Positions 4,750-26,806 of a DNA stretch of 53,888 nucleotides are shown here, piece by piece. Location: IMG/VR virus record IMGVR_UViG_3300031578_000046, positions 1 to 53,888 of that record. One strand, given 5' to 3'. This stretch comes from a virus. Every line of letters starts with the position of its first letter. Positions within the stretch are counted from its first letter, which is position 1. The position numbers and the translations under genes were made by a program. Under the pieces are notes generated by a model, which did not search any database, was not told where the DNA came from, and saw only the letters and a list, made by a program, of their open reading frames with translations.

Positions 4750-4980
4750 TTAATAATTATCGGTTACAAGTTTTAAACCATTAAATTTATAAATTTTTAA
4801 TTTTCGTTTTATTGCCCCCTGATAGCTTATATTTTCATCTTTGGCATATTGTGATAATGTTTTAATATTTAAAATAATAGCAACGTGTTCAAAAATTTGA
4901 ACCAAATCATCATTATTTAGCTCTCCCTTATGAATACATGCAAATAATCTATCTTTTATAATAAGCGATCTATCAGACAT
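4750..4980 (-). CDS. Small helical protein at the 3' end of cassette island 1
   Basis: 76 aa. The C-terminal half (TLSQYAKDENISYQGAIKRK) resembles a helix-turn-helix that reads like a MerR/excisionase-type recognition unit, so DNA binding is plausible. Its first and last segments occur again, fused by an internal deletion, at 22785-22830 and 25039-25084. Each time they lie immediately downstream of a cassette island on the gene strand. A role as an island-boundary gene is therefore suspected. Confidence 0.72.
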   Translation of the reverse strand: MSDRSLIIKDRLFACIHKGELNNDDLVQIFEHVAIILNIKTLSQYAKDENISYQGAIKRKLKIYKFNGLKLVTDNY

Positions 4981-4991
4981 TTATGTTAAGT

Positions 4992-5026
4992 TTAAAATTT
5001 TGAACTGACTTTATACAATTGTTAGC
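4992..5026 (-). repeat. Island 3'-boundary repeat, copy 1
   Basis: Consensus on the gene strand: GCTAACAATTG, then TAAAGT, then AGTTCAAAATTTTAAACT. Related copies end islands at 17041-17075, 22840-22871 and 25094-25125. It supplies the last left-half core (GCTAAC) and an AT-rich near-palindrome but no right half. Confidence 0.75.
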
Positions 5027-5294
5027 GGCAAGCGAAGAAAGGCTTCGGCATTGGCTTCCAATATATTATTTTATTACTTGGTGGTGGACTGCTTTTATAT
5101 CTATTTTCCCACTTCTCACTACCATCGGTAAATTTAAAGTGCATTAAATGGTGTATTGTTCTGTTTTCAAGCATTACAATATATTCTGCTGTCATATCTG
5201 TTTGCGGTGGATAAAAAATATATGAACGCCAGCCGCTAACAAGCAATATAAAAAATGCCTTAAAGTGTGCTAAAATTGAAGTTCTTGTTTTCAT
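5022..5294 (-). CDS. Cassette protein, chimeric start inside attC-like site
   Basis: 90 aa. I chose the ATG at 5294 (MKTRTSILAH) over the longer frame because the upstream part lies over the neighbouring gene. The first 20 residues are encoded within the attC-like site 5235-5364 and end in LLVS, where GTTAGC is the right core. The cassette body begins GWRSYIFYPP. The stop codon TAA is part of the next core, GCTAAC, at 5021-5026. The N-terminus is hydrophobic (FKAFFILLV) and could act as a signal anchor. No family recognised. Confidence 0.72.
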   Translation of the reverse strand: MKTRTSILAHFKAFFILLVSGWRSYIFYPPQTDMTAEYIVMLENRTIHHLMHFKFTDGSEKWENRYKSSPPPSNKIIYWKPMPKPFFACR

Positions 5295-5364
5295 ATTTAC
5301 TTTATTTTTAATTGATAAATTAGTTCTTTGTAGTCGGCACTTTTCATATTGCCGACCATTAGGC
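5235..5364 (-). repeat. attC-like site 1 (start codon inside)
   Basis: 130 bp. The left half begins GCCTAATGG at the DUF3307 stop codon with left arm GCAATATGAAAAGTGCC. The right arm is GGCATTTTTTATATTGC, ending in core GTTAGC. The arms pair almost completely. The interior holds the ATG of the next gene. Confidence 0.82.
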
Positions 5365-5697
5365 AACATAATGCGCTACTGCTGCCATCCAAAGTATATG
5401 TATAACGTTATCAACTATCACATGCCCCCAAAATTTGCTAAAATCATTCTGGAATTTACCAGTCACCCTGCAAAACCAAGCTACAAAATGTGTTCGGTCT
5501 TGTATGTAATGTTGTACTGCAATAAGCAATAGTTGTATTAAACTTAGTTCTGTAAATATAAACGGTATCATGTACGTTAAAATGTGTACACTACACGCAA
5601 AGTCGCTTTTCTTTTTGTTACCTGCCATCCAATCATTTTGTAGCAAGTAGTCACCTATTAAGTGGGCTAATATCCAAGGCAAATTTAGTCCTATCAT
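5359..5697 (-). CDS. DUF3307-like membrane protein
   Basis: 112 aa from the ATG at 5697, eight bases after the core GTTAGGC. LPWILAHLIGDYLLQNDWMA followed by a basic NKKK matches the DUF3307 signature (AHLIGDFLLQ-W). Two or three transmembrane helices follow (YMIPFIFTELSLIQLLLIAV; HVIVDNVIHILWMAAV). DUF3307 proteins are small inner-membrane proteins of unknown function found in phages and bacteria. The stop TAA lies in the core GCCTAAT of site 1. Confidence 0.86.
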   Translation of the reverse strand: MIGLNLPWILAHLIGDYLLQNDWMAGNKKKSDFACSVHILTYMIPFIFTELSLIQLLLIAVQHYIQDRTHFVAWFCRVTGKFQNDFSKFWGHVIVDNVIHILWMAAVAHYVA

Positions 5698-5706
5698 AAT
5701 TACGTT

Positions 5707-5834
5707 GCCTAACAATAAATATAGCAAATAGCCAAGTTAGGCGTGCATTTGTCACTATCTGCGTGTTTATAATCATTTTACTGTATTCAAAGTTTGTGCT
5801 ATTTATGGCTACTTGCCATATTCTCAACGTTAGC
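5707..5834 (-). repeat. attC-like site 2
   Basis: 128 bp. Left half begins GCTAACGTTG with arm ATATGGCAAGTAGCCA. Right arm TTGGCTATTTGCTATATT ends in core GTTAGGC. It is nearly identical to site 8 at 8618-8746, which follows an unrelated cassette. An ATG in the interior opens a frame through the right arm. Confidence 0.88.
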
Positions 5835-5857
5835 AAACATTAAAACGATTTGCTAAC
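5829..5857 (-). repeat. Empty mini-cassette
   Basis: Only 29 bp lie between right core GTTAGC and left core GCTAAC. The sequence is the start (GTTAGCAAATCGTTTTA) and end (AATGTTTGCTAAC) of the cassette at 12240-12474 joined together. It is therefore a deletion remnant of a gene cassette. Confidence 0.75.
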
Positions 5858-6499
5858 ACGGTATATAACCAATGCTTACCGTGTAGCTTCGTATTAAGTT
5901 TCTGCAAGTGCTTTAAAAATTTTGCCAACGCTCTTTAATTTTTTTCAAAAATTATTTTTTAGTTTCATCACAAATATTATATTTTGGACAATAAGTACAT
6001 GGCTGTGGAGGTTTTAAAAAATCATCATTTTTTACAGTAAAAAATTCATATAAGTCTTTGCATAAATATCTATCACACTTTAAAGGCATTCTTTCACCTC
6101 CATTTTTAATTATTGATTTTATTCTTAATTTACCATAACGCCAAGGTGATTCTAATTTATATGAATACATTTGTATATTTTTTACTTTACAATAAAAATC
6201 TATACTTAAATACTCACCATCTTCAGATGTTTCAGTTTCTTTTATTAAATGTTTACAAAAATTAAAACACGAATGTTTATTATTAGGATTTTCTTTACAT
6301 GCTTTTTCGTGTTTTATGCAATCATTTGACCTTTTATAAATTTTATTACAGTAATCGCATTTAAAAGCTTCTATTTTTTCCATAATTTATTTATATTAAT
6401 GTTAAAAAATGCCCCCTAAAAATTTTTAAAACAGGAACTCCTGTTCTCGTATCGAAATTTGTAGGTTTATTCGCACTGGTCATATACCCACCGTTATGT
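5852..6499 (-). repeat. attC-like arms enclosing a complete gene (site 3)
   Basis: The left half at 6470-6499 (CATAACGG then GGGTATATGACCAGTGC) pairs with the right half at 5852-5880 (GCATTGGTTATATACC then core GTTAGC). The 648-bp span is far longer than other sites because the gene 5952-6383 lies between the arms. Confidence 0.7.
5952..6383 (-). CDS. Zinc-finger-like Cys-rich protein
   Basis: 143 aa. FKCDYCNKIYKRSNDCIKH with a following C (KAC) reads as a C2H2/C2HC zinc finger at residues 8-30. Further Cys clusters follow (CFNFCKHL; CDRYLCKDL) and a C-terminal CTYCPKYNIC. Multiple zinc sites are likely and nucleic-acid binding is plausible. It is not a typical cassette gene: it lies between two arms of an attC-like repeat and is as AT-rich as core phage genes. 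Confidence 0.75.
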   Translation of the reverse strand: MEKIEAFKCDYCNKIYKRSNDCIKHEKACKENPNNKHSCFNFCKHLIKETETSEDGEYLSIDFYCKVKNIQMYSYKLESPWRYGKLRIKSIIKNGGERMPLKCDRYLCKDLYEFFTVKNDDFLKPPQPCTYCPKYNICDETKK

Positions 6500-6547
6500 A
6501 CAAGCGCAAAGCAGTACATCTAATAAAGTTCAGTGGGAGTAATTTTA

Positions 6548-6736
6548 TTATTTTTTCTTCCTACCTCCTCTTTTAACATCAAGTTTTCTAACTTCTAATT
6601 GCCAATCTAAATGTATCGGAAATTTTTTACCTTTTAAAGTATGATAATTATAACCTAATTCATCACACATAATTTTTAAATTACCAAACGGCATAATTTG
6701 CTTTTTATACCAATCAATATATAGTATTGTTTTCAT
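6548..6736 (-). CDS. Small basic protein
   Basis: 62 aa with a strongly basic tail (VKRGGRKKK), probably nucleic-acid binding. MCDELGYNYHTLKGKKFPIH may form an HTH-like unit. It overlaps the preceding small gene by 23 bases. It is the last of three genes in one long cassette (about 6493-7229) that has its own promoter. Confidence 0.65.
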   Translation of the reverse strand: MKTILYIDWYKKQIMPFGNLKIMCDELGYNYHTLKGKKFPIHLDWQLEVRKLDVKRGGRKKK

Positions 6737-6866
6737 TTTTATTTTCCCAAAATATTATTGATGATTCAAATGGATATATAACTCTTGCTTGATGTTTTCC
6801 ACATTTAATACATTTTCTTTCAGAAGGAGTTATCATAATCCATTTATGTCTATGTAATAATTTCAT
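6714..6866 (-). CDS. Small zinc-ribbon-like protein
   Basis: 50 aa (MKLLHRHKWI...). C-x2-C in RKCIKCGKH with flanking His suggests a small zinc site. It overlaps the upstream gene by four bases (ATGA) and runs 23 bases into the next, a typical coupled arrangement that supports this short gene. Function unknown. Confidence 0.66.
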   Translation of the reverse strand: MKLLHRHKWIMITPSERKCIKCGKHQARVIYPFESSIIFWENKNENNTIY

Positions 6867-7054
6867 ATTTGTGTAGCTTTTAAATTACTTAAATCTGGAA
6901 AATTTATTAAACAATTGAGTTTATTAATCGCTCTGTGTTTTGCATTATCTTTAGTTGTGGCATCAATAAACATTGTTTTTCCTTCTGGAAATAATTTTTG
7001 AGCAAGTTTACAATTTCGCCCCTTACTACTTAATTCTACTGCAAATGTTTTCAT
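6863..7054 (-). CDS. Small unknown protein
   Basis: 63 aa. MKTFAVELSSKGRNCKLAQKL followed by KDNAKHRAINKL looks like a compact alpha/beta peptide. No family recognised. It is first in a three-gene set behind the promoter at 7082-7112. Confidence 0.66.
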   Translation of the reverse strand: MKTFAVELSSKGRNCKLAQKLFPEGKTMFIDATTKDNAKHRAINKLNCLINFPDLSNLKATQI

Positions 7055-7081
7055 ATATTATGTGATTTTTTTAATTATACG

Positions 7082-7112
7082 TAAATATAGTTATTATGTT
7101 TCTAATAAACAA
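7082..7112 (-). promoter_or_regulatory. Bacteroidota-type promoter for genes 7054-6548
   Basis: On the minus strand TTG (7112-7110), 20 bases, then TATATTTA (7089-7082), one base from the TAnnTTTG -7 consensus. It sits 28 bases before the ATG at 7054. Confidence 0.6.
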
Positions 7113-7220
7113 GAATTATAGTGTTTATTTTTCTATTTTAATTAAAATATTTTTGCCATCACACAAAAAATAATAAAATTACCTTTCTTCGTAGCGTGCT
7201 AAGTGGCTGATAATGCGCCA

Positions 7221-7276
7221 GTACATAACACGCAATAAAGCACATTAAAACGATGCCTTATTGCTGTCCGTTGTAC
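7221..7276 (-). repeat. attC-like site 4 (short)
   Basis: 56 bp. It runs from GTACAACGG with arm GCAATAAGGC to arm GCTTTATTGC and core GTTATGTAC. The 234-bp stretch 7055-7286 otherwise holds only the promoter at 7082-7112. Confidence 0.75.
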
Positions 7277-7286
7277 GCAATAAAAA

Positions 7287-7493
7287 TTACTTACGTACTA
7301 GTATATTTAATGGTTCTTTGCCTTTTCCTATCAAATATTTATCTACCGCAATTGCAGCTTCTCTTTCTGTATCATAAGTTTTTCTGCAAACATTTGGCAG
7401 TGTTATCATCCAGTAATTTTTATCAGTAGTTTGAGCACACTGCTGTACATATTTGTATTTACTTTTTCCGTATTTTGTTGTCTGTTGTGCCAT
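7287..7493 (-). CDS. AP2-domain-like DNA-binding protein
   Basis: 68 aa from the ATG at 7493 (MAQQTTKYGK), 20 bases after core GTTGTAC. KYKYVQQ, then NYWMITLPNV, then KTYDTEREAAIAVDKYLIGK follows the AP2 pattern of three strands (W in strand 2) and a helix (TE-EAA-A-D). Phage AP2 domains bind DNA and often accompany HNH nucleases or act alone. One gene per cassette. Confidence 0.72.
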   Translation of the reverse strand: MAQQTTKYGKSKYKYVQQCAQTTDKNYWMITLPNVCRKTYDTEREAAIAVDKYLIGKGKEPLNILVRK

Positions 7494-7512
7494 AAGTCGT
7501 AATTTTAAAAGC

Positions 7513-7608
7513 GTACAACACGCTGTATAGTTAATAAGCCGGATAGTTTTGTGCGTTGATTTGGGGCTGTGTGGTCGGCTTACATAACCATACAGCCATC
7601 CATTATAA
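7513..7608 (-). repeat. attC-like site 5
   Basis: 96 bp. Left half starts ATAATGGATG at the stop of the next gene with arm GCTGTATGGTTATGTAAGCC. Right arm GGCTTATTAACTATACAGC ends in GTGTTGTAC. Confidence 0.85.
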
Positions 7609-7896
7609 ACAAGCGTAAATAAGCACACCTAAGATTAAACCAACTACAAAACCTACAATTCTGTTATTTATTGGATCGTTCCAAAAACGCCAGTTTATAA
7701 CATTTTGTAAATGCAAGCCGTTTGCGCTCGCATCAGCTTTCACAGCCGCACTATCTAAACTATCAAATACGGTGTCTTTAATCTCATCCCATATTTCAGG
7801 TTCGTGTTTTTTAATCAACCTTAATAATTTAAAGTAAGTTTCTCCATTCATTGAAACTCCGCTAATTGTCACTTTTACATCTTTAATATCTGCCAT
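7603..7896 (-). CDS. Chimeric cassette protein with C-terminal membrane helix
   Basis: 97 aa. Residues 1-65 are soluble and acidic/helical (ETYFKLLRLIKKHEPEIWDE) and lie between the arms of site 6. The right core GTTATA falls at about residue 66, after LHLQN. The cassette body then gives INWRFWND and one transmembrane helix (IVGFVVGLILGVLIYACL) at the C-terminus. No family known. The two halves look like independent modules joined at the core. Confidence 0.7.
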   Translation of the reverse strand: MADIKDVKVTISGVSMNGETYFKLLRLIKKHEPEIWDEIKDTVFDSLDSAAVKADASANGLHLQNVINWRFWNDPINNRIVGFVVGLILGVLIYACL

Positions 7897-7980
7897 CGCT
7901 CGGTTATTTATAATTTATATTCACGTTCATAATTTTGTGCTATTTTCAACAACGGCCAGCACTTACAAGTTGCCGTTAGC
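7695..7980 (-). repeat. attC-like site 6 with long interior
   Basis: Left half GCTAACGGCAACTTGTAAG at 7957-7980, followed by TGCTGGCC, pairs with right arm GGCTTGCATTTACAA and core GTTATAA at 7695-7722. The 286-bp span includes the start and first two-thirds of the gene at 7603-7896. Confidence 0.78.
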
Positions 7981-8281
7981 GGCAAGCTGGCCTCCACAAT
8001 TCAAATTTATCCATTAATCCGTCATCCCTCATCACCTTACCTACTCCTATATATTCAGCTTCTACCCAATCTATATTTCCTTTATATCTAATTCTATCAC
8101 CTATTTCTGGCTTTTCATCTTCAATATTCAGCCAGCCGCTAACATGCGGTATAGGTAATTTGCCGTCCTCCGATTTAAGTTTGTGCAAATCTGCCAAAAA
8201 ATTATCAACTAATTCTTTTGTTTCAAATCCTTCCAATGCTTTAGAAAGATTTTCATACTTTGTTATTAATTTCTGTATCAT
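7976..8281 (-). CDS. DUF551-like protein with shuffled N-terminus
   Basis: 101 aa. GWLNIEDEKPEIGDRIRYKG and the ending FELWRPACR match DUF551 (W-I-----LPE-G--V ... W-P). The core GTTAGC encodes Val-Ser immediately before the GW that opens the domain, at about residue 48. The 47 residues before it are helical and encoded between the arms of site 7. DUF551 is widespread in phages, of unknown function. The stop TAA lies in core GCTAAC. Confidence 0.82.
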   Translation of the reverse strand: MIQKLITKYENLSKALEGFETKELVDNFLADLHKLKSEDGKLPIPHVSGWLNIEDEKPEIGDRIRYKGNIDWVEAEYIGVGKVMRDDGLMDKFELWRPACR

Positions 8282-8361
8282 AATTTTTTTAAGTTAAGTA
8301 TTTCAATTCAAGTCTGGTGCGGTGCGTGGGGCAAACATACCCATACCGCCAGCCGTTAGGC
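8138..8361 (-). repeat. attC-like site 7 with long interior
   Basis: Left half GCCTAACGGCTGGCGGTATG with GGTATGTTTGCC pairs with right arm GGCAAATTACCTATACCGC and core GTTAGC. The span is 224 bp. Six extra bases sit next to the left core, as in attC spacer asymmetry. Confidence 0.85.
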
Positions 8362-8607
8362 ACAATGGTAAGTTGCACCTTTCTTCCATTCCTCCACACG
8401 CTTTTGTGCTGCCTCTAATGTTTTAAAGCTTTTACTAAATGGTTGTAGTATCGGCCAAGTTTGTATCACACCACCCCACGCATTTGTTCTGTACCAACTC
8501 CATTCTTTGCGTTTCCACCAAAGCATTCCTTTTTCTTCATATCCTCGTATTTGTATCTCAAATGCTCCGCAATATTCTCTAATTCTATATTCTACTTCTT
8601 TTTTCAT
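8356..8607 (-). CDS. Trp-rich cassette protein
   Basis: 83 aa. The first half (EYRIREYCGAFEIQIRGYEE) is beta-strand-like, then KGMLWWKRKEWSWYRTNAWG is Trp-rich, followed by a helix (FKTLEAAQKRVEEWKKG). This strand-helix pattern with a terminal amphipathic helix resembles small phage proteins of unknown role. The stop TAA falls in core GCCTAAC. The ATG follows core GTTAGGC of site 8. Confidence 0.75.
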   Translation of the reverse strand: MKKEVEYRIREYCGAFEIQIRGYEEKGMLWWKRKEWSWYRTNAWGGVIQTWPILQPFSKSFKTLEAAQKRVEEWKKGATYHCA

Positions 8608-8617
8608 AAACCACTGT

Positions 8618-8746
8618 GCCTAACAATAAATATAGCAAATAGCCAAGTTAGGCTTGTATTTGTCACTATTTGCATGTTTATAATCATTTTACTGTATTCA
8701 AAGTTTTGTGCTATTTATGGCTACTTGCCATATTATCAACATTAGC
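8618..8746 (-). repeat. attC-like site 8, duplicate of site 2
   Basis: 129 bp, nearly identical to 5707-5834 although the flanking genes are unrelated. Core GTTAGGC lies at the right end on the gene strand, and the left core has decayed to GCTAAT. Confidence 0.88.
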
Positions 8747-8748
8747 AA

Positions 8749-9000
8749 CTATAAATTGCCTTCAATAAATCTATCTACGTGTCTTTCTGGTATGTACAGG
8801 TGCATTTCCTCGTCCTCATTAATCCATTCACGAAAGGCAATTAACAGTTCCCTTCGGTTGCTAACAACGGGTATAGCAAATAATTTTACTATCTTTTCTG
8901 TGTAATTGTTAATACTTTCTTGTATTTCACCAATTGTATTATCTCTCTCGGTAATCTGATTCTCAAATTCAATTAATAATTTTTTTACTTCTTTTTTCAT
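8749..9000 (-). CDS. Chimeric helical cassette protein
   Basis: 83 aa. Residues 1-45 form a coiled-coil-like helix (LLIEFENQITERDNTIGEIQ) encoded between the arms of site 9. At about residue 46 the core GTTAGC encodes Val-Ser, after which the body begins NRRELLIAFREWINEDEE. Both halves are mostly helical and acidic. No known family. The stop TAG precedes the decayed core GCTAATG by three bases. Confidence 0.72.
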   Translation of the reverse strand: MKKEVKKLLIEFENQITERDNTIGEIQESINNYTEKIVKLFAIPVVSNRRELLIAFREWINEDEEMHLYIPERHVDRFIEGNL

Positions 9001-9061
9001 AATATAGTTTTTTAGTGTTTCAAATCCGTAAAATTACATTGCCATACCCAAAACGTTATAA
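8860..9061 (-). repeat. attC-like site 9 (start codon inside)
   Basis: Left half TATAACGTTTTGGGTATGGC with AATGTAATTTT pairs with right arm AAAATTATTTGCTATACCC and core GTTAGC. Span 202 bp. Confidence 0.84.
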
Positions 9062-9295
9062 AACATTTGCCAACCGCACTATTGTTGTCAATTTAATTTC
9101 TTCTTTTTTCAGTGGACATTCATTTGGGATATTTCCGTCACGGCTATTCTCGTGTGTTATTATCATACACTTGTATGGGTCTTTAAGCTTTTCAAAATAT
9201 GGATGACCACATTTCATAGCATTTCCTGATGTCGTGTAGAATGGACATTCATTCCAACATCCTTTTACTTTTTTGGTTTTCTTTATAATTTCCAT
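9056..9295 (-). CDS. Cys-rich probable zinc-binding cassette protein
   Basis: 79 aa. CWNECPFY, MKCGHPYF, YKCMII and NECPLKKEE provide five or six Cys and His in zinc-knuckle-like spacing (C-x3-C ... C-x-H ... C ... C). It is probably a small zinc protein, of a type common in phage accessory regions. The ATG lies 14 bases after core GTTATAA, and the stop TAA is in core TATAAC. Confidence 0.75.
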   Translation of the reverse strand: MEIIKKTKKVKGCWNECPFYTTSGNAMKCGHPYFEKLKDPYKCMIITHENSRDGNIPNECPLKKEEIKLTTIVRLANVL

Positions 9296-9308
9296 CGTTA
9301 AAAACGTT

Positions 9309-9435
9309 TTATAACAACGTATAAAATTAATTGCTACGTTATTGGGTTATTTAATGTATTTACTTTTAATCAATTTTTAGTAGTTTGCGAAAGTCGTGCA
9401 TCTAACACGCAACTAATCTTATACCAACGTTATAC
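9309..9435 (-). repeat. attC-like site 10
   Basis: 127 bp. GTATAACGTTGGTATAAG with ATTAGTTGC pairs with GCAATTAATTTTATAC and core GTTATAA. The sequence upstream of its left core (9431-9493) recurs at 50481-50543. Confidence 0.83.
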
Positions 9436-9493
9436 ACAAGCGTAAGAAAGTTTCGTTCATTTAATCAACACCTGTGCAACCTTGCCATAATTA
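9431..9493 (-). repeat. Dispersed repeat, copy shared with 50481-50543
   Basis: About 63 bp are nearly identical at the two places, covering the 3' ends of two unrelated genes plus the start of the attC-like left half. Exchange between islands 1 and 5 is the simplest explanation. Confidence 0.85.
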
Positions 9494-9679
9494 TTTTTTG
9501 CCTTCGCTCTTACAATTTTTCAAATTGTTTAGGAATTGGTTTAATGGTTCTTCCCAATGTTTAGCAAGTTTTTGAGAGCCGTTAACAGCTTTTACTAAAG
9601 TAGTGTCGGGCATCTTTAATTGTCGTTCTATTCCTCTAAGGCTTAACGAGTCTTTATTTTTTCTTAGCCATTCTAACAT
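9491..9679 (-). CDS. Small HTH-like cassette protein
   Basis: 62 aa. LSLRGIERQLKMPDTTLVKAV reads as a helix-turn-helix, and WEEPLNQFLNNL follows. It is possibly a transcription regulator or antitoxin-like protein. It is the second gene of a two-gene cassette: its ATG overlaps the stop of the upstream gene (ATGTTAG), so translation is probably coupled. Confidence 0.75.
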   Translation of the reverse strand: MLEWLRKNKDSLSLRGIERQLKMPDTTLVKAVNGSQKLAKHWEEPLNQFLNNLKNCKSEGKK

Positions 9680-10050
9680 GAAGCTCCGCTTAAATAGTTA
9701 GCCATATTGCATGTATCAAATAATGATGCAGGTTTTTTAATCCTTTCATTATTTTCTTCTAATCCTTTTAGGATCCATTCTAATTTTTGAATGTCTTGTA
9801 TTTGCTCCATTATCGTAATTCTGCCTTTACTTTCTCCTTCGCTACCAGTTTTATGAACTAAACACACAACACCACCAACCGAAACATAAGCACCTATTAT
9901 TTCATATTGGATTAAATCATCTTCAATATAATCAACCCAACCGCAACTACAATAAGCGTTTGTTTTTATACTATTATTAATAATACGCTCAGCCTCATTA
10001 CACATTAGCTTGATAAGGGCTTGTTTTGCTTCTTTAATTTCAGTTTTCAT
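9673..10050 (-). CDS. Unknown protein, first gene of a two-gene cassette
   Basis: 125 aa. N-terminal helices (KEAKQALIKLMCNEAERIIN) lead to a region with CSCGWVDYIEDD and IGAYVSVGGVVCL, then a helical C-terminus. Probably one alpha/beta domain of unknown family. The leader before the ATG contains two copies of an AATATCC-type motif (10072-10117), so this cassette may carry its own regulated promoter. Confidence 0.72.
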   Translation of the reverse strand: MKTEIKEAKQALIKLMCNEAERIINNSIKTNAYCSCGWVDYIEDDLIQYEIIGAYVSVGGVVCLVHKTGSEGESKGRITIMEQIQDIQKLEWILKGLEENNERIKKPASLFDTCNMANYLSGASC

Positions 10051-10071
10051 AATCTTAGTTTTTCGTTAAAC

Positions 10072-10117
10072 AATATCCAAATATAAGGGTAATATATTTA
10101 ATATCCTAATATAAAGG
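10072..10117 (-). promoter_or_regulatory. Tandem direct repeats with possible -7 element
   Basis: On the plus strand AATATCCAAATATAAGG (10072-10088) and AATATCCTAATATAAAGG (10100-10117) are near-identical and 28 bases apart. The first contains TATATTTG on the gene strand, an exact TAnnTTTG. They may be a promoter overlapped by regulator sites for the 9673-10050 gene. Confidence 0.5.
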
Positions 10118-10118
10118 T

Positions 10119-10286
10119 AAAAAAAGAACCCCTCCCTAAAAAATAATTATTACTTCCGTGTTTCAAATGTAGGTAAGTGATTAAACGCCAGTGTATAACA
10201 ACGCATAAAAATAAAAGCCTTTGGAAGCTTATTATTTCAAATTAACGTTGTAGTGTCGGCTTCAATTCTTATGCAAACCGTTAGGT
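10119..10286 (-). repeat. attC-like site 11 plus flank, duplicated at 51089-51255
   Basis: The site proper is 10195-10286, from ACCTAACGG with arm GCATAAGAATTGAAGCC to arm GGCTTTTATTTTTATGC and core GTTGTTA. About 76 further bases after the core are shared with 51089-51165. Past that point the two copies diverge into unrelated genes. Confidence 0.88.
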
Positions 10287-10496
10287 TTCATTTGCCACCG
10301 CCACACGGTTATCAGACTCCCACGCCTCAATTGCAAAATGCTGTGACCGTATGTAGTTTTCATGACTACGATAGCCACATTTAGAACATTCAAGCCTAAA
10401 AGCAACACCGTTAAACGAACTGCCATTGTCTCCACATTCTTTGTCTATTTCTGCTTCTCCTCCGCATTTTTTACATGGTATTTTTTCTGTACTCAT
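10281..10496 (-). CDS. Lar-like zinc-ribbon protein (possible restriction alleviation)
   Basis: 71 aa from the ATG at 10496 (MSTEKIPCKK). IPCKKCGGEAEI, a later ECSKCGYRS and the ending FAIEAWESDNR follow the Lar/PF14354 pattern (CPFCGG ... C-x2-CG ... A-EAWN-R). Lar of phage Rac alleviates type I restriction, but most family members are untested. It is carried in a single-gene cassette; the stop TAA is in core CCTAAC. Confidence 0.8.
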   Translation of the reverse strand: MSTEKIPCKKCGGEAEIDKECGDNGSSFNGVAFRLECSKCGYRSHENYIRSQHFAIEAWESDNRVAVANET

Positions 10497-10529
10497 AATC
10501 TTGTTTTTACCCCACCGCACAAAACGAAA

Positions 10530-10658
10530 ACCTAACAATTTATATATTGCAAATTTTTTAGTAATTGTAGGTGAGTGGTTATTAATTTATTTTATCTCTA
10601 ATTGTTAATTTATCTCATTCTGGTTGCAAAATTCGACAACATATAAGTTGCCGTTAGC
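10530..10658 (-). repeat. attC-like site 12
   Basis: 129 bp. GCTAACGGCAACTTATATG pairs with TATATAAATT and core GTTAGGT. Confidence 0.8.
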
Positions 10659-10670
10659 AGCCATACAAGG

Positions 10671-10847
10671 CTACTTTTCATATCTTATTGCTCTGTCTTT
10701 CATTATGTGCCCACACTCAATGCATGGCTTTTCAAACCACACTTTACCATCATGCTTACATCCTTTACATACAGTTATTTCAACCTTAGTAGTACGGCTG
10801 CTAACAATATGTTTAGGTAATTGGGATTTTGTGTTATCTTGTTTCAT
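10671..10847 (-). CDS. Small zinc-ribbon cassette protein starting inside attC-like site
   Basis: 58 aa, MKQDNTKSQLPKHIVSSRTT. The ATG at 10847 and the first 16 residues lie in site 13, and the core GTTAGC encodes the Val-Ser of HIVSS. The body has VCKGCKHDGKVWFEKPCIEC with two C-x2-C pairs, a zinc ribbon. Its own cassette has no upstream ATG before the zinc ribbon, so expression depends on the attC-borne start. Stop TAG at 10671. Confidence 0.76.
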   Translation of the reverse strand: MKQDNTKSQLPKHIVSSRTTKVEITVCKGCKHDGKVWFEKPCIECGHIMKDRAIRYEK

Positions 10848-10926
10848 TGCATTTCAATTTTAAGTTTATCAATATTTGGTAGGGTAGTGCAAGTAATCCC
10901 AACTACCCAAACACTCAACATTAGGG
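10800..10926 (-). repeat. attC-like site 13 (start codon inside)
   Basis: 127 bp. CCTAATGTTGAGTGTTTGGG with TAGTTGGGATT pairs with AATCCCAATTACCTAAAC and core GTTAGC. Confidence 0.87.
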
Positions 10927-10930
10927 CGAA

Positions 10931-11251
10931 TTAAGCCGACTTAATAAGTTTAAGGCTATCTTCACCAAAACCCGAAAAAGAATTGAAATTATAGCAGGTG
11001 TTTGCTTTTACAAATGCTTTCTGCCAAAGTTCCATCCCTTTGCTTCCAAGTACATATAATGGAGTTCCGTCACAATCTCTAACGCATCCAATTATATACA
11101 GTCTCATTCCTGCATATTCACAATCTTCATCCCAAGCTATAATTTCAACCAAGTCATCTACTTTATACTTGTGCTGTTTAGCGTTATTTTCTTCTCTATA
11201 AGTTTTCCCAGTTTTCGGGTTTTTAAGGTCTGCAATATTTATAAGTTCCAT
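10931..11251 (-). CDS. Cassette protein with SH3/KOW-like beta core
   Basis: 106 aa. KYKVDDLVEIIAWDEDCEYA, then MRLYIIGCVRDCDGTPLYVL looks like a small beta barrel similar to SH3/KOW-like folds. The C-terminus includes NFNSFSGFGEDSLKLI. Exact family unknown. It has its own ATG, 16 bases after core GTTAGGG, and the stop precedes core CCTAAT. Confidence 0.73.
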   Translation of the reverse strand: MELINIADLKNPKTGKTYREENNAKQHKYKVDDLVEIIAWDEDCEYAGMRLYIIGCVRDCDGTPLYVLGSKGMELWQKAFVKANTCYNFNSFSGFGEDSLKLIKSA

Positions 11252-11267
11252 ATCTAAAAATTAACTC

Positions 11268-11365
11268 GCCCTAACAATAAATAAACCCAATATGGCAGGG
11301 GCAAGGTTCTGCCATTGTTTAAAGTTCGGTAGGCTGCCAAACTGTGTTTATTAAAACCGTTGTGT
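11268..11365 (-). repeat. attC-like site 14
   Basis: 98 bp. ACACAACGG then AATAAACACAGTTTGGCA pairs with TGCCATATTGGGTTTATT and core GTTAGGGC. Confidence 0.86.
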
Positions 11366-11371
11366 GTAATA

Positions 11372-11665
11372 CTACTTACTAAGCTCAATTAAGCAATTCT
11401 TTAGTATTTCAAACGCATCCTCTTGCGCTGCTTCTGTTGTGGAAAATCCAGCCCCACGCTCACTCGGTTCATGCAAGCTTTCTTCTAACACTTGCAATGC
11501 TTTTTCGGCAGCATCTTCTATTGCGTTATCCACACGCTCACGCTCTTCAATTTCTTCCATAGCTATTCCATAACCTTCCCAGTTATCTACTCCAGCGCAT
11601 TCCAACGCACGCATTTTAGCTTCAATCAACTCTAATTCTTTTAATCTACTTTTTGAAATTTCCAT
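11372..11665 (-). CDS. Acidic helical cassette protein
   Basis: 97 aa, almost wholly helical and acidic: KSRLKELELIEAKMRALECA, MEEIEERERVDNAIED and EKALQVLEESLHE. No Trp-rich or Cys motif. Small acidic helical phage proteins can mimic DNA or bind host enzymes, but nothing specific supports that here. Base composition is visibly less AT-rich than the phage core. Confidence 0.72.
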   Translation of the reverse strand: MEISKSRLKELELIEAKMRALECAGVDNWEGYGIAMEEIEERERVDNAIEDAAEKALQVLEESLHEPSERGAGFSTTEAAQEDAFEILKNCLIELSK

Positions 11666-11697
11666 TTTATTTAAGTTTTGCGGCTTAAAGTACTACA

Positions 11698-11790
11698 CAC
11701 AACAACGTATATAGTTAAAAAGCCATGTTAATATTCGTTCATTTAATCAGCGTTTGCAGTTGGCTTTCAAACCATATACCAACGTTAGCG
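11698..11790 (-). repeat. attC-like site 15
   Basis: 93 bp. CCGCTAACGTTGGTATATGG with TTTGAAAGCCA pairs with TGGCTTTTTAACTATATAC and core GTTGTTG. Confidence 0.86.
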
Positions 11791-11797
11791 GTAATTG

Positions 11798-12178
11798 CTA
11801 CACCACTATCGGCTCTTCGCAAAATGGACATTCGCCAATCTGTATTACTTTTGTTTTGTAGAAGCTCCACGCACTAGCCCTATCAATTTCACTTTCGGTT
11901 ATTGGTGTATACCAGTTTCCAGAAACTTCGCCTGTAATATCATAATATCGTCCATTGTATTTAGTTATTACGTGGTCTTTTTCTTTGCTTATAAAAGCCT
12001 CACTTTCTGGGAAGAATGTTTTTAGCAACAAGTGAAATTGATAACACGCACCATTCATATAAATCATTTCAATATACCTATCTGTTTGGCGAAGTGCGTT
12101 AATAAACCGCAACATACCGCTAACAATACCTATATTTAATTGGGCGTTTACTGCCTCTTCAAACTCTTTTGCTTCCAT
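11798..12178 (-). CDS. Chimeric cassette protein with conserved DHVI-YYDITGE domain
   Basis: 126 aa. After 19 residues encoded within site 16, core GTTAGC (IGIVSG) opens the body. GACYQFHLLLKTFFPESEAF, then DHVITKYNGRYYDITGEV resembles a widespread phage and bacterial small domain of unknown function. The C-terminus has IGECPFCEEPIVV, a C-x2-C zinc-like tail. It has the same gene-site geometry as its neighbours. Confidence 0.76.
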   Translation of the reverse strand: MEAKEFEEAVNAQLNIGIVSGMLRFINALRQTDRYIEMIYMNGACYQFHLLLKTFFPESEAFISKEKDHVITKYNGRYYDITGEVSGNWYTPITESEIDRASAWSFYKTKVIQIGECPFCEEPIVV

Positions 12179-12245
12179 TTTGCTTTACTTTATATTGATA
12201 ATTTAGTGCTATTAATGCCCAACTAAACATAGCCGAGCCGTTAGC
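12119..12245 (-). repeat. attC-like site 16 (start codon inside)
   Basis: 127 bp. GCTAACGGCTCGGCTATG with TTTAGTTGGGC pairs with GCCCAATTAAATATAGG and core GTTAGC. The interior is related to that of site 20 at 18569-18696. Confidence 0.89.
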
Positions 12246-12251
12246 AAACAT

Positions 12252-12455
12252 TTATAAACCGAATCGTTCAGGTTTATAAATTTCGTGCTTCCAATCTTTT
12301 AAATGAGTTTCAGTACTCTTTTTAATTTTTGCGTGTGCAGGTATTTTTTGGTCAGTAAGCAAACATTCGAATATCAAGCCAGTAAATACCTTAGGAGCTG
12401 TATAGTCTTCTAACCAGTAAACTATTCCTATTTCTAAATTTTGTGTGTAGTGCAT
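12252..12455 (-). CDS. First cassette gene of island 1
   Basis: 67 aa from the ATG at 12455 (MHYTQNLEIG). A GTG in the core could add seven residues but is less likely. EIGIVYWLEDYTAPKVFTGL and LKDWKHEIYKPERFGL are unrecognised. The stop TAA lies 9 bases before core GCTAAC. Its two ends, without the middle, survive as the empty cassette at 5829-5857. Confidence 0.7.
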   Translation of the reverse strand: MHYTQNLEIGIVYWLEDYTAPKVFTGLIFECLLTDQKIPAHAKIKKSTETHLKDWKHEIYKPERFGL

Positions 12456-12468
12456 AATAAAACGATTT

Positions 12469-12505
12469 GCTAACACAACCTATACACCATAAAGCGATAT
12501 AGTAT
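12469..12505 (-). repeat. Half attC-like site at the 5' end of island 1
   Basis: Right arm and core only (GCTTTATGGTGTATAGG then GTGTTAGC). No matching left half is visible upstream, so this is the island boundary, comparable in position to attI or a secondary target. Confidence 0.6.
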
Positions 12506-12564
12506 TGTATTAAGATTAAACATTGTGCTCTTTTTGCTATGTCTATTTTTGGCATGAGTATTTT

Positions 12565-16987: not shown

Positions 16988-17040
16988 TAATATTAATTTG
17001 GTTAATATTTAAGACAATAGATTTTCTATTGAATATTGGT

Positions 17041-17075
17041 TTAAAATTTTGAACTAACTTTATTCAATTGTTAGC
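17041..17075 (-). repeat. Island 3'-boundary repeat, copy 2
   Basis: Same GCTAACAATTGAATAAAG plus AGTTCAAAATTTTAAAC consensus as the other island ends. The DNA beyond it differs from the other three copies. Confidence 0.75.
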
Positions 17076-17448
17076 AATCAGTTTGCCGAGCAGAGCAATC
17101 ATAATCACCGTGTTTACATATATTGTTTTCATTATTTGCACAAGCATTTGAGTAGCAAACCGAATTGCTAACAAGTTGTATAATTAATGCTTTGTTCTCG
17201 TCTGTAATTTTTGCCCACGCACACTTTTCTTTGTCAAGTCCGTACAAGGCATTGCTAATCTCATTGTTAATATCTTCCCACCTATCATCTTCCTCAATCT
17301 CCTGCTCTTCCTCACATCCGCATTGCCTGCATATAGTTGTGTTTAAATGCCACTTATTACTACATACACCATCGTTTAGGTCAAATATTGCTCCGCAATG
17401 CTCGCAGGGTGTTGGCATTTCCATTTGTTCTAAATCATATTCTTCCAT
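17071..17448 (-). CDS. Chimeric zinc-binding cassette protein
   Basis: 125 aa. N-terminal module: CEHCGAIFDLNDGVC and CRQCGCEEEQ (zinc ribbon) followed by acidic helices. At about residue 94 the core GTTAGC encodes Val-Ser, and the last 32 residues are a separate Cys-rich module (NSVCYSNACANNENNICKHG). A similar short Cys-rich tail follows a core in the 23315-23683 gene, suggesting a shuffled C-terminal module. The stop TAA is in core GCTAAC. Confidence 0.76.
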   Translation of the reverse strand: MEEYDLEQMEMPTPCEHCGAIFDLNDGVCSNKWHLNTTICRQCGCEEEQEIEEDDRWEDINNEISNALYGLDKEKCAWAKITDENKALIIQLVSNSVCYSNACANNENNICKHGDYDCSARQTDC

Positions 17449-17535
17449 CGCTCGTAAATTTTAAAGTTTGTATCTCGTATTATCTTTTCTGCAAATTTGG
17501 TAAAGCGCACTAATCATACAACAGTACCGTTATGC
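17167..17535 (-). repeat. attC-like site 18 with very long interior
   Basis: Left half GCATAACGGTACTGTTGTAT with GATTAGTGC pairs with right arm GCATTAATTATACAACTT and core GTTAGC. Span 369 bp, with 93 codons of the downstream gene inside. Confidence 0.8.
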
Positions 17536-17841
17536 CCCATTAGGCTTAACATCTTCTACTCTATATTTAAGTACTTCTGTTTCTGAAACACCGCAACACA
17601 CGCATCTAATTACATCTACTATTTCATCGTGCATTATTTCGGCTGCAGGGCTTTGTACTGGCACATCTACCCAAGTGTTACTACGTAGTCGCCCAATAAC
17701 TTTGTGTGTGTATTGTTCATTTTTACAGCCATGTCTTTTCTGCTCAATTATTCCGTAATCTCCAAAATCTAAAACGGGGCATAACAATGCATCATATTGC
17801 ATAGCCTCGTTGTTATCGGTAGTTTCGTTCTTTTTATTCAT
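17530..17841 (-). CDS. Chimeric cassette protein, zinc-like CVCCG motif
   Basis: 103 aa. The first 20 residues (MNKKNETTDNNEAMQYDALL) lie in site 19, and the core GTTATGC follows directly, opening the body CPVLDFGDYGIIEQKRHGC. Later VIRCVCCGVSETEVL contains closely spaced Cys. No named family. The stop TAA is in core CATAAC. Confidence 0.74.
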   Translation of the reverse strand: MNKKNETTDNNEAMQYDALLCPVLDFGDYGIIEQKRHGCKNEQYTHKVIGRLRSNTWVDVPVQSPAAEIMHDEIVDVIRCVCCGVSETEVLKYRVEDVKPNGA

Positions 17842-17908
17842 TTCAGTTTATATTTTAAGGTTTGTAATTCTAATCAAAAGGCTACGCAACATATGCTAGC
17901 CATTATCG
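17779..17908 (-). repeat. attC-like site 19 (start codon inside)
   Basis: 130 bp. GATAATGGCTAGCATATG with TTGCGTAGCC pairs with GGCTATGCAATATGATG and core GTTATGC. Confidence 0.84.
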
Positions 17909-17913
17909 GCAAC

Positions 17914-18624
17914 CTAAAAAGACAGCGTACCTTGTTTGATACTTTCTGAAATTCGTTTGATTGCCTTGTCAATATATTCTTTGTCGATTTCACACGCTGT
18001 TAAGTGTAAATTCATTTTATCTAATCGGTTTGCTTTATCAACTGCCAAAGCTATTGAGCCGCTCCCGAAATGGGTATCTAATATCTTCATTCCTTCGGTT
18101 GCGTAGTTTTTTAAAGTATAACTATACAAACATATTGGTTTTTGTGTGGGATGGAACGTGCCCCCTTCACGCACTAAAACAAGTGGATTTTTAGTATATT
18201 CACGCAAAGCCCTATTAAATGAAGTGTAAGCAAGTTCAGCATCGGAACTGCTAAAATTACCACGGTCTTTTCTCCATATAATCCAGCCCATCGAAGGCTT
18301 TAAATATTCCACCATATAGTTAGCTCCCCAAATTATTTGGTTTTTGCTTACTCTGTATAATTCTTTAAAGTAATCTTCTGTTGGTATGTTTGTATCCCAG
18401 CCTTTAAATTCGTGGGCTTTTCTTCCTCCGTGGCTTCCGCTTGTTTGTTTTGCACCATCATACCCAATCCCATAAGGTGGGTCAACAATAGCCAAATCAA
18501 AGTATTTATCAGGGTATTGCTTCATAATTTCCATACAATCAGCGTGGAAAAGAGAAAGAAAAGGCAGCCGATAACACTCGCTATATGCAATTTGGGGGTC
18601 GGTGGTATTCGTAAGTTCGTTCAT
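17914..18624 (-). CDS. DNA methyltransferase, beta class (N4/N6)
   Basis: 236 aa. DPPYGIG (48-54, catalytic motif IV) precedes HPTQKP and ILDTHFGSGSIALA (SAM motif I), the beta-class order. It methylates DNA, adenine N6 or cytosine N4. No restriction enzyme is adjacent, so it is probably an orphan that protects phage DNA or regulates. The first 16 residues (ending IAYSE) come from within attC-like site 20; the body starts at the Cys-Tyr (TGTTAT) core and continues RLPFLSLFHADCMEIM. Confidence 0.93.
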   Translation of the reverse strand: MNELTNTTDPQIAYSECYRLPFLSLFHADCMEIMKQYPDKYFDLAIVDPPYGIGYDGAKQTSGSHGGRKAHEFKGWDTNIPTEDYFKELYRVSKNQIIWGANYMVEYLKPSMGWIIWRKDRGNFSSSDAELAYTSFNRALREYTKNPLVLVREGGTFHPTQKPICLYSYTLKNYATEGMKILDTHFGSGSIALAVDKANRLDKMNLHLTACEIDKEYIDKAIKRISESIKQGTLSF

Positions 18625-18696
18625 TTAATTTACATTTGTTAAGTTTGATAGTGCAGTGCTTTTAATTCCCAAACTGCACATAGCGGAAACGTTAGC
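18569..18696 (-). repeat. attC-like site 20 (start codon inside)
   Basis: 128 bp, 5' end of island 2. GCTAACGTTTCCGCTATGTG with CAGTTTGGG pairs with CCCCAAATTGCATATAGC and core GTTATCG. Confidence 0.86.
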
Positions 18697-22686: not shown

Positions 22687-22736
22687 AGCTGTTTGTTTAA
22701 TTATATTTAAAGATAATTAATAATTTTTATAAAATA

Positions 22737-22871
22737 TATGACTTTTATCATGTTTTGTTATTTATAATCATTATTAATAATTATCAGTTACAAGTTTTAA
22801 ACAAATTAATAAGCGATCTATCAGTCATTTATATTTAGTTTAAAATTTTGAACTAACTTTATTCAATTGTT
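22737..22871 (-). repeat. Boundary repeat with deleted gene, copy 3
   Basis: 135 bp, about 97% identical to 24991-25125. It contains only the first and last codons of the gene at 4750-4980 (now MTDRSLINLFKTCN then stop) plus the island 3'-end element. Confidence 0.85.
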
Positions 22872-22879
22872 GTGCGCAA

Positions 22880-23170
22880 TTAAAACGCACCTTCCTGCTC
22901 AATTTCTTCTATCTTTAATTCAAGTTCATCCACATTTTCTGCTTCTTCAATACCCCATTGTCTTAGTTCGTCATTACTTGCCCTTAATTCTTCCAAATAA
23001 TCAATGCAACTTTCAAGTTCATAAGACATATCAGCGGCTGCGGAGTATAAATCATCGTATTCAAGTCCTTCTAACTCTCTGTCTTTATACAATACTTGCT
23101 TTATAGCTTTTATGTATTTATCAATATCAGGGCAAGTATGCTTTATCGGTTCTCTAATATGTGAAGCCAT
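22880..23170 (-). CDS. Acidic coiled-coil cassette protein
   Basis: 96 aa. An N-terminal helix (CPDIDKYIKAIKQVLYKDRE) is followed by two long acidic helices (LRQWGIEEAENVDELELKIE). The ATG lies just after core GTTGTGC of site 21. The stop TAA lies close to core CACAAC. Function unknown. Confidence 0.72.
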   Translation of the reverse strand: MASHIREPIKHTCPDIDKYIKAIKQVLYKDRELEGLEYDDLYSAAADMSYELESCIDYLEELRASNDELRQWGIEEAENVDELELKIEEIEQEGAF

Positions 23171-23179
23171 AATTAACTG

Positions 23180-23304
23180 CGCACAACACTAAATAAAACA
23201 AATAGCCGTGCTATGCGGTCTTTTTAAAGCTATTTGTAAGTTTGTAATATATTTAATCTTTGTAGCTATTATCTTGGGCTACTAGTTTTATTATTTACGT
23301 TAGC
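23180..23304 (-). repeat. attC-like site 21
   Basis: 125 bp. GCTAACGTAAATAATAAAAC with TAGTAGCC pairs with GGCTATTTGTTTTATTTAG and core GTTGTGC. Its interior resembles that of site 33 at 51556-51684. Confidence 0.87.
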
Positions 23305-23314
23305 AACAAGCCTG

Positions 23315-23683
23315 CTATTCAAAGCATTTTTTATTCTTGTTGCATACGTGGTTTATTGGTCTTATAGTGCAATTACTAGCATTTTTGCAGGCCAGATTGC
23401 TAACACCAAATATATTTAATGCTTGGTTGGTGCTTTTAATAGGCATTTCGCCCTCACACACTTTTTGCAAAGCTTCTATATCTATCAAGTTTAGTTCTTC
23501 AGCAATACTATATGCTATCTCATACGTGCCTTTTGCTTTTTTGGGCTTATGGTTTCTAAACTCAATTTCTCTGCCTAACTCAAAGTCGTATCTCTTATCT
23601 GTAAAAGGCACTTGCTTCGTGTAGCTGTAATCAACTATTAGCTTCCTTTGGTGTCCATCAAATTTTATGTTATATATTGCCAT
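23315..23683 (-). CDS. Chimeric cassette protein with Cys-rich tail
   Basis: 122 aa. The N-terminal 95 residues (MAIYNIKFDGHQRKLIVDYS, then ELNLIDIEALQKVCEGE) lie between the arms of site 22. Core GTTAGC encodes Val-Ser, then SNLACKNASNCTIRPINHVC gives a short Cys-rich module related in spacing to the tail of the 17071-17448 protein. Stop TAG. Confidence 0.75.
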   Translation of the reverse strand: MAIYNIKFDGHQRKLIVDYSYTKQVPFTDKRYDFELGREIEFRNHKPKKAKGTYEIAYSIAEELNLIDIEALQKVCEGEMPIKSTNQALNIFGVSNLACKNASNCTIRPINHVCNKNKKCFE

Positions 23684-23762
23684 CGCTCTGTATTTTTATC
23701 GTTTGTACTATTAATTAAAGTTCGTGCTAATTTTACGCACTAAACATATTTTTTTCGTTAGC
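23399..23762 (-). repeat. attC-like site 22 with very long interior
   Basis: GCTAACGAAAAAAATATG with TTTAGTGC pairs with GCATTAAATATATTTGG and core GTTAGC. Span 364 bp, like site 18. Confidence 0.76.
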
Positions 23763-23967
23763 GGTCATTGTCGTTCTTTTTCAACCATCGCATAAATGAG
23801 TTAAACCCTGCATCTATTTCGGCTTCTGGGCTATATGGTGCAACTTCTCCTAAGTTTGTAGCTTTCCATTCATCTACCAATTTTTCTACTTTTTGGTAAA
23901 ACAACGAACCGCTAACACTAAATATAGGCAAATTGCCGTTTTTATTTGTTTCTTTATTTGTACTCAT
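23758..23967 (-). CDS. Chimeric cassette protein
   Basis: 69 aa. MSTNKETNKNGNLPIFSVS is the leader from within site 23 (core GTTAGC = Val-Ser). The body is GSLFYQKVEKLVDEWKATNL, then EIDAGFNSFMRWLKKN, a small helical protein. The stop TAA is in core GCTAAC. Confidence 0.72.
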   Translation of the reverse strand: MSTNKETNKNGNLPIFSVSGSLFYQKVEKLVDEWKATNLGEVAPYSPEAEIDAGFNSFMRWLKKNDNDR

Positions 23968-24037
23968 AGGTCAGTTTATTTTATTAAGTTTCTACTAATT
24001 TTCAAGGGCAATCAGCCCATATTATTTTCCATTATAA
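23911..24037 (-). repeat. attC-like site 23 (start codon inside)
   Basis: 127 bp. TATAATGGAAAATAATATG with GGCTGATTGCC pairs with GGCAATTTGCCTATATTT and core GTTAGC. Confidence 0.85.
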
Positions 24038-24220
24038 ACAATAAAAATATGACAGCATTGCCATTAATCCAACCACACCAATCATACCACAAATCACAGC
24101 AATTTTACCACCTATCATTAATCTTCTACCATGTTTTTCATTTTCAACCACCACTCCCCACACACGGTATTCTGGTTCAATGTGTATTATCTTACTTTCG
24201 TCAATTATTGGTTCTTTCAT
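24032..24220 (-). CDS. Small C-terminal membrane-anchor protein
   Basis: 62 aa. Soluble N-terminus (MKEPIIDESKIIHIEPEYRV) and one C-terminal helix (IAVICGMIGVVGLMAMLSYF). Its C-terminal YFYCL-stop resembles that of the 7603-7896 protein (IYACL-stop), because both run into the same core type (TTTATAATG). Confidence 0.7.
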   Translation of the reverse strand: MKEPIIDESKIIHIEPEYRVWGVVVENEKHGRRLMIGGKIAVICGMIGVVGLMAMLSYFYCL

Positions 24221-24231
24221 GTTTTAAAAGT

Positions 24232-24345
24232 TTATAACAATATACATAGTTAATTTACCGTGCTTTATTGCTACATTGGTTTATAATTTAATCTTTATCT
24301 TTTTGTTGTTGCCTCAGTTTAAACGCACCTTACCCAAACGTTAAC
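24232..24345 (-). repeat. attC-like site 24 (weak), 5' end of island 3
   Basis: 114 bp between AGTTAACG and GTTATAA. The arms pair less well than elsewhere. Confidence 0.5.
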
Positions 24346-24913: not shown

Positions 24914-24990
24914 TTTGTAAAGTTTTTAGTTAATAATTATTTGTTTTATTAATTATAACGTCTAAATTACGTATAAGTTTTAATATATTA

Positions 24991-25125
24991 TATGACTTTT
25001 GTCATGTTTTGTTATTTATAACCATTATTAATAATTATCAGTTACAAGTTTTAAACAAATTAATAAGCGATCTATCAGTCATTTATATTTAGTTTAAATT
25101 TTTGAACTGACTTTATTCAATTGTT
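24991..25125 (-). repeat. Boundary repeat with deleted gene, copy 4
   Basis: Copy of 22737-22871 with about four differences, again directly downstream of an island on the gene strand. Confidence 0.85.
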
Positions 25126-25194
25126 ATCGTTCATTGCCGTGAAAAGGCAGTGTTTAAAACGAATAGAAAGAAGCACGGCAACGAAAACGATAAC
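25123..25194 (-). repeat. Minimal cassette between two cores
   Basis: 72 bp bounded by GTTATCG and CGATAAC in perfect inversion, with inner TTGCCGTG/CACGGCAA arms. It holds no own start; a frame entering from upstream could read VIVFVAVLLSIRFKH and stop after the core. Confidence 0.66.
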
Positions 25195-25284
25195 AATGCG
25201 TAAATTCCATGCTTACTTTCTACCTCGTTTCTAAGTCGGTGGGTAATCGAGCAATTAAAAATAAAAGCCCTCACACCGTTCTAA
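25188..25284 (-). repeat. attC-like site 25 (weak)
   Basis: TAGAACGGTGTG to core GTTATCG, with limited arm pairing. Listed because it occupies the expected place. Confidence 0.4.
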
Positions 25285-25511
25285 TCAACTTCGGTAAAAT
25301 CTACATAATAAGTTTTACCAGGAACTAAATAATCTTTGGCAACTGCATTTTTATCAACCTGTATGGTTATGTTACCAGACGGTGTCGCTTCTGCAAACTG
25401 ATTATTTTCCTCGTTGTCTTTGTCATTAGTTCCGTAAACCGCTGACAATTTTGCCTCTTTGTTTCCATAACTGTATTCAGTTACAGAATCGCAATTAAAT
25501 TTTGCTCTCAT
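25281..25511 (-). CDS. Small conserved-looking phage protein
   Basis: 76 aa. MRAKFNCDSVTEYSYGNKEA, then FAEATPSGNITIQVDKNAVA and ending YLVPGKTYYVDFTEVD resembles a beta-rich protein widely seen in phages (function unknown). A weak core GTTATGG falls in codons for EYSYG. The leader CTTTACAAATG resembles that of neighbouring genes. Confidence 0.8.
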   Translation of the reverse strand: MRAKFNCDSVTEYSYGNKEAKLSAVYGTNDKDNEENNQFAEATPSGNITIQVDKNAVAKDYLVPGKTYYVDFTEVD

Positions 25512-25634
25512 TTGTAAAGTATTTATTATTTGGGTACTCTATTAAAAGTTTTCCCCTTCCCTTTTTTATTTTTAATTTGTTCTCGTTTCAACTTCATCGG
25601 TTATTCCGCACGTAACTTACGCTAATCATTATAT
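25465..25634 (-). repeat. attC-like site 26 (weak)
   Basis: TATAATG ... to core GTTATGG, with partly pairing GTTAC/GTAAC arms. Interior contains a 23-codon frame of doubtful meaning. Confidence 0.4.
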
Positions 25635-25638
25635 GGCA

Positions 25639-25908: not shown

Positions 25909-25913
25909 GTAAT

Positions 25914-26276: not shown

Positions 26277-26291
26277 AATAAATAAACTACG

Positions 26292-26383: not shown

Positions 26384-26387
26384 TTAA

Positions 26388-26805: not shown

Positions 26806-26806
26806 G

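Follow-up and report, generated by a model that had tools for sequence, protein, structure and literature searches.

We have identified an element of about 35 bp that occurs in four copies in a phage genome. Each copy immediately precedes, on the 5' side, the first cassette of an integron cassette array, which is where attI would lie, and the sequence stays constant among the four arrays. Its likeness to attI is one of position and junction only. We consider it probable that the element is a phage-borne landing site (attI-like or attG-like) for cassettes, served by an integron integrase acting in trans. The window, by which we mean the whole stretch of DNA analyzed here, is the 53,888 nucleotides of IMG/VR record IMGVR_UViG_3300031578_000046. 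Because this record has a terminal overlap of 177 bp (53712-53888 repeat 1-177 at 99.4% identity), the phage genome is probably complete at about 53.7 kb. Its identified genes include those for a large terminase, a portal, a major head protein, a DnaB-like helicase and a replication initiation protein, and its host group is probably the Bacteroidota. An ORF at 1917-2699 on the minus strand encodes a CxxxCxxC-like motif, KGCPHNCKYC, which suggests a radical SAM protein.

The four copies reported in the earlier note are real repeats. On the minus strand, GCTAACAATTGAATAAAG occurs at 5009-5026 with 1 mismatch, at 17058-17075 with 0, at 22857-22874 with 3 and at 25111-25128 with 1, where 0.36 copies are expected by chance and none of 100 shuffles reaches four. 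AGTTCAAAATTTTAAACT comes next after it, with 0-1 mismatch, at 4989, 17038, 22837 and 25091. The strings given for the element previously represent a consensus from which single copies depart: copy 1 reads TGTATAAAG, copy 4 includes AAAAATTT, and copy 3 begins CACAAC and copy 4 GATAAC. No further copies are found in the window at up to 3 mismatches. The element and its neighbors are as follows.

4989-5023, plus strand: landing element copy 1, AGTTTAAAATTTTGAACTGACTTTATACAATT|GTT, junction G|TT at 5021
17038-17072, plus strand: landing element copy 2, junction at 17070
22837-22871, plus strand: landing element copy 3, junction at 22869
25091-25125, plus strand: landing element copy 4, junction at 25123
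4750-4980, minus strand: small phage gene of 76 amino acids without a Pfam match, adjoining copy 1, its start also beside copies 3 and 4
22724-22871, minus strand: duplicated block of 148 bp, the element plus a 14-codon remnant of the 76-amino-acid gene
24978-25125, minus strand: second copy of the 148-bp block, 95% identical to 22724-22871

The islands that these copies border are CALINs, arrays of integron cassettes that lack an integrase gene. Most of their cassettes begin with GTTRRRY, the reverse complement of their own last R'' (RYYYAAC); clear examples of this closure are 5021-5240, 8355-8624, 11359-11703 and 22869-23187. Chained along island 1, closure reaches a score of 27; none of 20 shuffles exceeds 9, and two structural regions of the genome score 4 and 9. 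Between the cassettes lie attC-type inverted repeats with an R''-to-R' spacing of mostly about 83 or about 118 nt. The arrays and an example of each attC class are listed below.

5021-12474, plus strand: island 1, about 16 cassettes with genes on the minus strand
17070-18691, plus strand: island 2, cassettes including an N6/N4 DNA methyltransferase at 17914-18624
22869-24341, plus strand: island 3
25123-27100, plus strand: island 4, right end approximate
49744-53184, plus strand: island 5, same attC family, no landing element, with a cassette homologous to 9429-10280
11701-11784, plus strand: short attC class, 83 nt from R'' AAC to R' GTT
12122-12240, plus strand: long attC class, 118 nt, with the start of a minus-strand gene inside the loop

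An earlier scan for attC with loose motifs did no better than shuffles. The detector used here finds 21 attC sites on the plus strand of the window, 1 on the minus strand and 0 in a shuffled control; since its motifs were chosen from the window's own attC family, absolute counts are lower bounds. Covariance-model matches confirm attC sites in the window, and when 14 short attC sites taken from several phages are aligned, 6 of 9 stem pairs show compensatory double changes. Folding of the strand that would form the recombination hairpin gave z = -2.1 and -1.4 in two examples. Several oddities lie within island 1. One 'cassette' of 29 bp (5829-5857, GTTAGCAAACATTAAAACGATTTGCTAAC) consists of R' plus R'' with no space for a gene, and a short piece resembling it also occurs in contigs G412, G416 and G423. 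At 5857-6493 the attC arms GGTATATAACCAATGC and GCACTGGTCATATACC stand about 600 nt apart, with an ORF of 143 amino acids (5952-6383) lying entirely in the loop. The distal end of the island, at 12472-12540, resembles a truncated attC, and the 388-kb viral contig L185 contains a piece homologous to its left part.

The arrays run from left to right on the plus strand, the reverse of the polarity assumed in the earlier note. Pieces containing attC that the window shares with contigs G414, G415, G425 and L185 end 3 nt past the G of the right-hand GTT, and the piece shared by islands 1 and 5 (10101-10283 and 51069-51252) ends at the same GTT point, which places the crossover of the cassettes at G|TT; the left ends of the shared pieces lie at R'' or run into the cassette body. 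The side motifs (AAC-A.. and ..C-GTT) fit canonical attC sites of bacterial integrons. Predicted genes start inside the attC loop in roughly 20 of about 50 phage cassettes, so that only left-to-right polarity keeps such a gene whole in one cassette, and chromosomal cassettes of the same attC family take the normal orientation under this rule. It follows that the element stands at the start of each array, where attI sits, and is not a downstream half site. Its placement at the downstream edge of the islands, as first described, thus holds on the gene strand; in attC polarity this edge is the upstream one, that of the first cassette.

The boundary between element and cassette is sharp. To the left of G|TT the copies agree pairwise at 29-32 of 33 positions, and over the 60 nt to the right of GTT agreement falls to 15-22 of 60, which is background; BLAST matches between the copies generally end at GTT. 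Each copy is followed by a different, unrelated first cassette, and each of these closes upon itself: GTTAGCGGC..GCCGCTAAC, GTTAGCAAT..ATTGCTAAC, GTTGTGCGC..GCGCACAAC and ATTGTTATC..GATAACAAT. An identity that ends exactly at G|TT, with another cassette after each copy, supports the earlier suggestion of a specific insertion point.

The same suggestion gains from two other, related phage contigs. These contigs, G422 (IMGVR_UViG_3300047666_000910) and G571 (IMGVR_UViG_3300046534_001653), which have a core gene in common at 94.5% identity, share a boundary of 130 nt at 90% identity, GTTTCTTTATCAGTA|GTTAGGC, beside the same small gene, and their cassettes differ from the first one onward, beyond G|TT. 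The same boundary with different cassettes indicates that the boundary is phage DNA and the array the variable part. This boundary sequence is their own and differs from the element of the window. The first cassette of G571 and the third cassette of G422 are identical over 27 bp, which hinted at stepwise insertion; this hint was set aside because the genes behind the match differ. A search with the boundary gene of G422 returned only a fragment starting inside the gene.

The neighborhoods of the copies leave a further account to be weighed, in which a single ancestral array was broken up by rearrangement and the four elements are duplicates of its end. Copies 1, 3 and 4 have about 65-69 bp in common, a stretch that takes in the start of the adjoining phage gene; the 148-bp block is common to copies 3 and 4, where the 76-amino-acid gene is reduced to a remnant. 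Judged by their sequence, copies 3 and 4, at least, arose by duplication. Because duplication ties copies 3 and 4, together with part of copy 1, to one another, the number of independent insertions is uncertain. Splitting of one array fits poorly with first cassettes that all differ and with homology that ends at G|TT; copy 2, which lies before another gene, has no more than about 36 bp in common with the others. We therefore regard the relic of a single split array, which the earlier note had offered as an option, as improbable.

The proposal that the last site is an attC half site did not survive comparison with attC itself. It was correct that no right arm follows, in that the best upstream stem partner reaches only the null level. 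The right side of the element ranks 916-1000 among 1185 GTT sites under an attC model, and the element, without attC features, is located at the 5' (attI) end of the arrays and not at their 3' end. Nor does it resemble Bacteroidota attI: it ranks 320-576 of 1185 GTT positions when compared with the attI sites of the sampled integrons, which end like TATAATTATAG|GTTA or GATAATATTAT|GTTA. Several phages have an L-box-like TTTAT in their boundaries that was suggestive by eye, and its rank was not clearly better than that of ordinary GTT sites.

A common transcription terminator that tends to sit at island ends, and that would recur at unrelated sites, had also been named as an alternative. Terminator-like hairpins on the gene strand do occur at the same array boundary in other phages (G418 near 3811, L185 near 1838, G423 near 15097 and 38091). 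The element itself is AT-rich, has no terminator-like fold and no terminator match, and shows no GC-rich hairpin followed by a T run, which makes this explanation very hard to credit.

A regulatory role of another kind deserves more attention. Insertion of cassettes at scattered degenerate GTT sites outside an integron (attG sites) is a known behavior, and it is conceivable that the element is a repeated phage leader, a promoter or operator with no part in recombination, beside which cassettes arrived through weak secondary GTT sites of the attG type. On the gene strand a phage gene lies just downstream of each copy, the start of the same gene is found at copies 1, 3 and 4, and the element contains the palindrome AGTTYAAAATTTTRAACT. 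In other phages, array boundaries of different sequence occupy the same position. On the other side, every detectable copy carries cassettes, identity among the copies breaks off precisely at the crossover, and no promoter-like or terminator-like site rises above shuffles at copies 3 and 4. On balance we think a leader unlikely and favor a landing site, against which it must be said that island 5 has cassettes without the element, which was looked for there (about 49744-53184) and is absent.

The element is narrowly distributed. Among the IMG/VR and GTDB contigs searched, its long pattern occurs only in the window genome and in the near-identical IMGVR_UViG_3300031673_000484. Outside that contig, a core of 16-17 bases is found only at places without these attC sites (26 contigs carry the shorter core, none with these sites nearby); a few chance closures near it proved to be one repeated sequence in unrelated phages of higher GC content. 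The empty locus that the earlier note proposed to compare did not turn up: the relatives searched yielded no empty copy of the element and no cassette-free relative. Terminase relatives have little in common with the phage beyond the terminase, and a search for other relatives of the 76-amino-acid neighbor gene found none. The attC family is more widespread. A pattern search recovered 20 viral contigs, most with the window's attC family, and a contig of a Bacteroidota genome bin (L096) carries a cassette homologous to the methyltransferase cassette. A covariance model finds the family in 35 of 395 sampled Bacteroidota genomes, and several Bacteroidota chromosomal attC sites have lengths similar to the 83 and 118 nt classes.

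The phage integrase domain PF00589 has no match in the window; the arrays are accordingly not complete integrons, and no intI adjoins the element as it does attI. The integron integrase model TIGR02249 has no match in the 16 other phage contigs with these attC sites. Because none is detected in the phage, the integrase probably comes from the Bacteroidota host; an integron integrase above the NCBIfam cut-off is present in 106 of the 395 sampled genomes (27%). No integrase gene was identified next to this attC family, whose exact pattern occurs in 1 of the 395 genomes, and 0 of 149 genomes from the family of that one genome have an integron integrase. Several of the sampled genomes of the phylum (G243, G063, G215) have attC arrays with no integrase in the stretch that was fetched.

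The phage cassettes also differ from chromosomal ones in the orientation of their genes. With orientation defined as the direction of the longest ORF, and with one detector and one polarity rule throughout, 51 tallied phage cassette genes are oriented against attC polarity, with 2 exceptions, or about 49:2 after removal of a duplicate contig and a cassette lacking an ORF. The antisense pattern is seen in islands 1-5 of the window, G414, G422, G423, G425, G002, L096 and phage P12002L (L343). All 15 cassettes assessed in the window are antisense to attC, the opposite of typical cassettes; P12002L follows the antisense pattern at 3 of 4 sites, by its annotated genes, and one further contig (L364, G307), a possible prophage, has 2 antisense cassettes. 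In chromosomal arrays of the same attC family genes run with attC polarity 36:1, and the corresponding ratio for 17 chromosomal integrons is 81:12 (compared with the phage counts, Fisher P = 4e-25). The phage cassette genes are co-directional with the neighboring phage genes and end beside the element, and the stop codon of many of them lies within the R box (xxTAAC).

These observations can be joined in a single scheme. A host integron integrase would recombine the attC of a cassette, circular or single-stranded, with the G|TT that closes the element on the right, so that each inserted cassette begins with its own TTRRRY; later cassettes may be inserted either at this junction or at attC sites. 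The phage would have four arrays because it has four landing sites. The reversed cassette genes would point along the phage operon and may be transcribed with it. The anatomy of the arrays, their junctions and polarity and the orientation of the genes are observed; we infer that the element is recognized by an integrase, that this enzyme is of host origin, and that the reversed genes are transcribed. It is tempting to speculate, with somewhat less than even confidence, that Bacteroidota phages have dedicated multi-copy docking sites and a phage-adapted pool of inverted cassettes, often starting in the attC loop, that the host integrase loads in the reading direction of the operon. If so, these phages are more than passive carriers of cassettes: they would offer fixed ports where a host recombinase loads accessory genes, with cassettes built for phage transcription. 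This would provide a mechanism by which such phages exchange their accessory genes quickly, among them the DNA methyltransferase found here, and would connect these genes with host integrons in a way that can be tested. That genes point in opposite directions in phage and chromosome within one attC family bears on how cassette orientation is selected.

Phage-borne CALINs are already known, for example in the cultured Polaribacter phage P12002L, one attC of which is reported to recombine with attI1 via the bottom strand (Qi et al. 2023, PMC9892861). The islands described here resemble those of that virulent phage in having attC sites and cassettes without an integrase, and the P12002L attC sites fit the description of the window's family. 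They differ in that four arrays are each headed by the element, whereas that paper has neither a repeated landing element nor a general reversal of genes. In the open-access literature searched, we found neither repeated landing elements nor a systematic reversal of genes described, and reversed cassettes together with multi-copy landing elements appear to be a new variant. Like the attI of an integron, the element forms the invariant side of the junction and lies immediately 5' of the G|TTRRRY of the first cassette; unlike attI, it has no adjoining integrase gene, is present in four copies per genome and matches no sampled Bacteroidota attI. With attG, the term used for secondary integration sites in PMC12901181, it shares cassette insertion at a GTT outside an integron, and it is distinguished by being a conserved, repeated element of 33 bp. 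Finally, the phage arrays have the attC family and the spacing of Bacteroidota chromosomal cassette arrays, in which genes follow attC polarity, while in the phages nearly all run against it.
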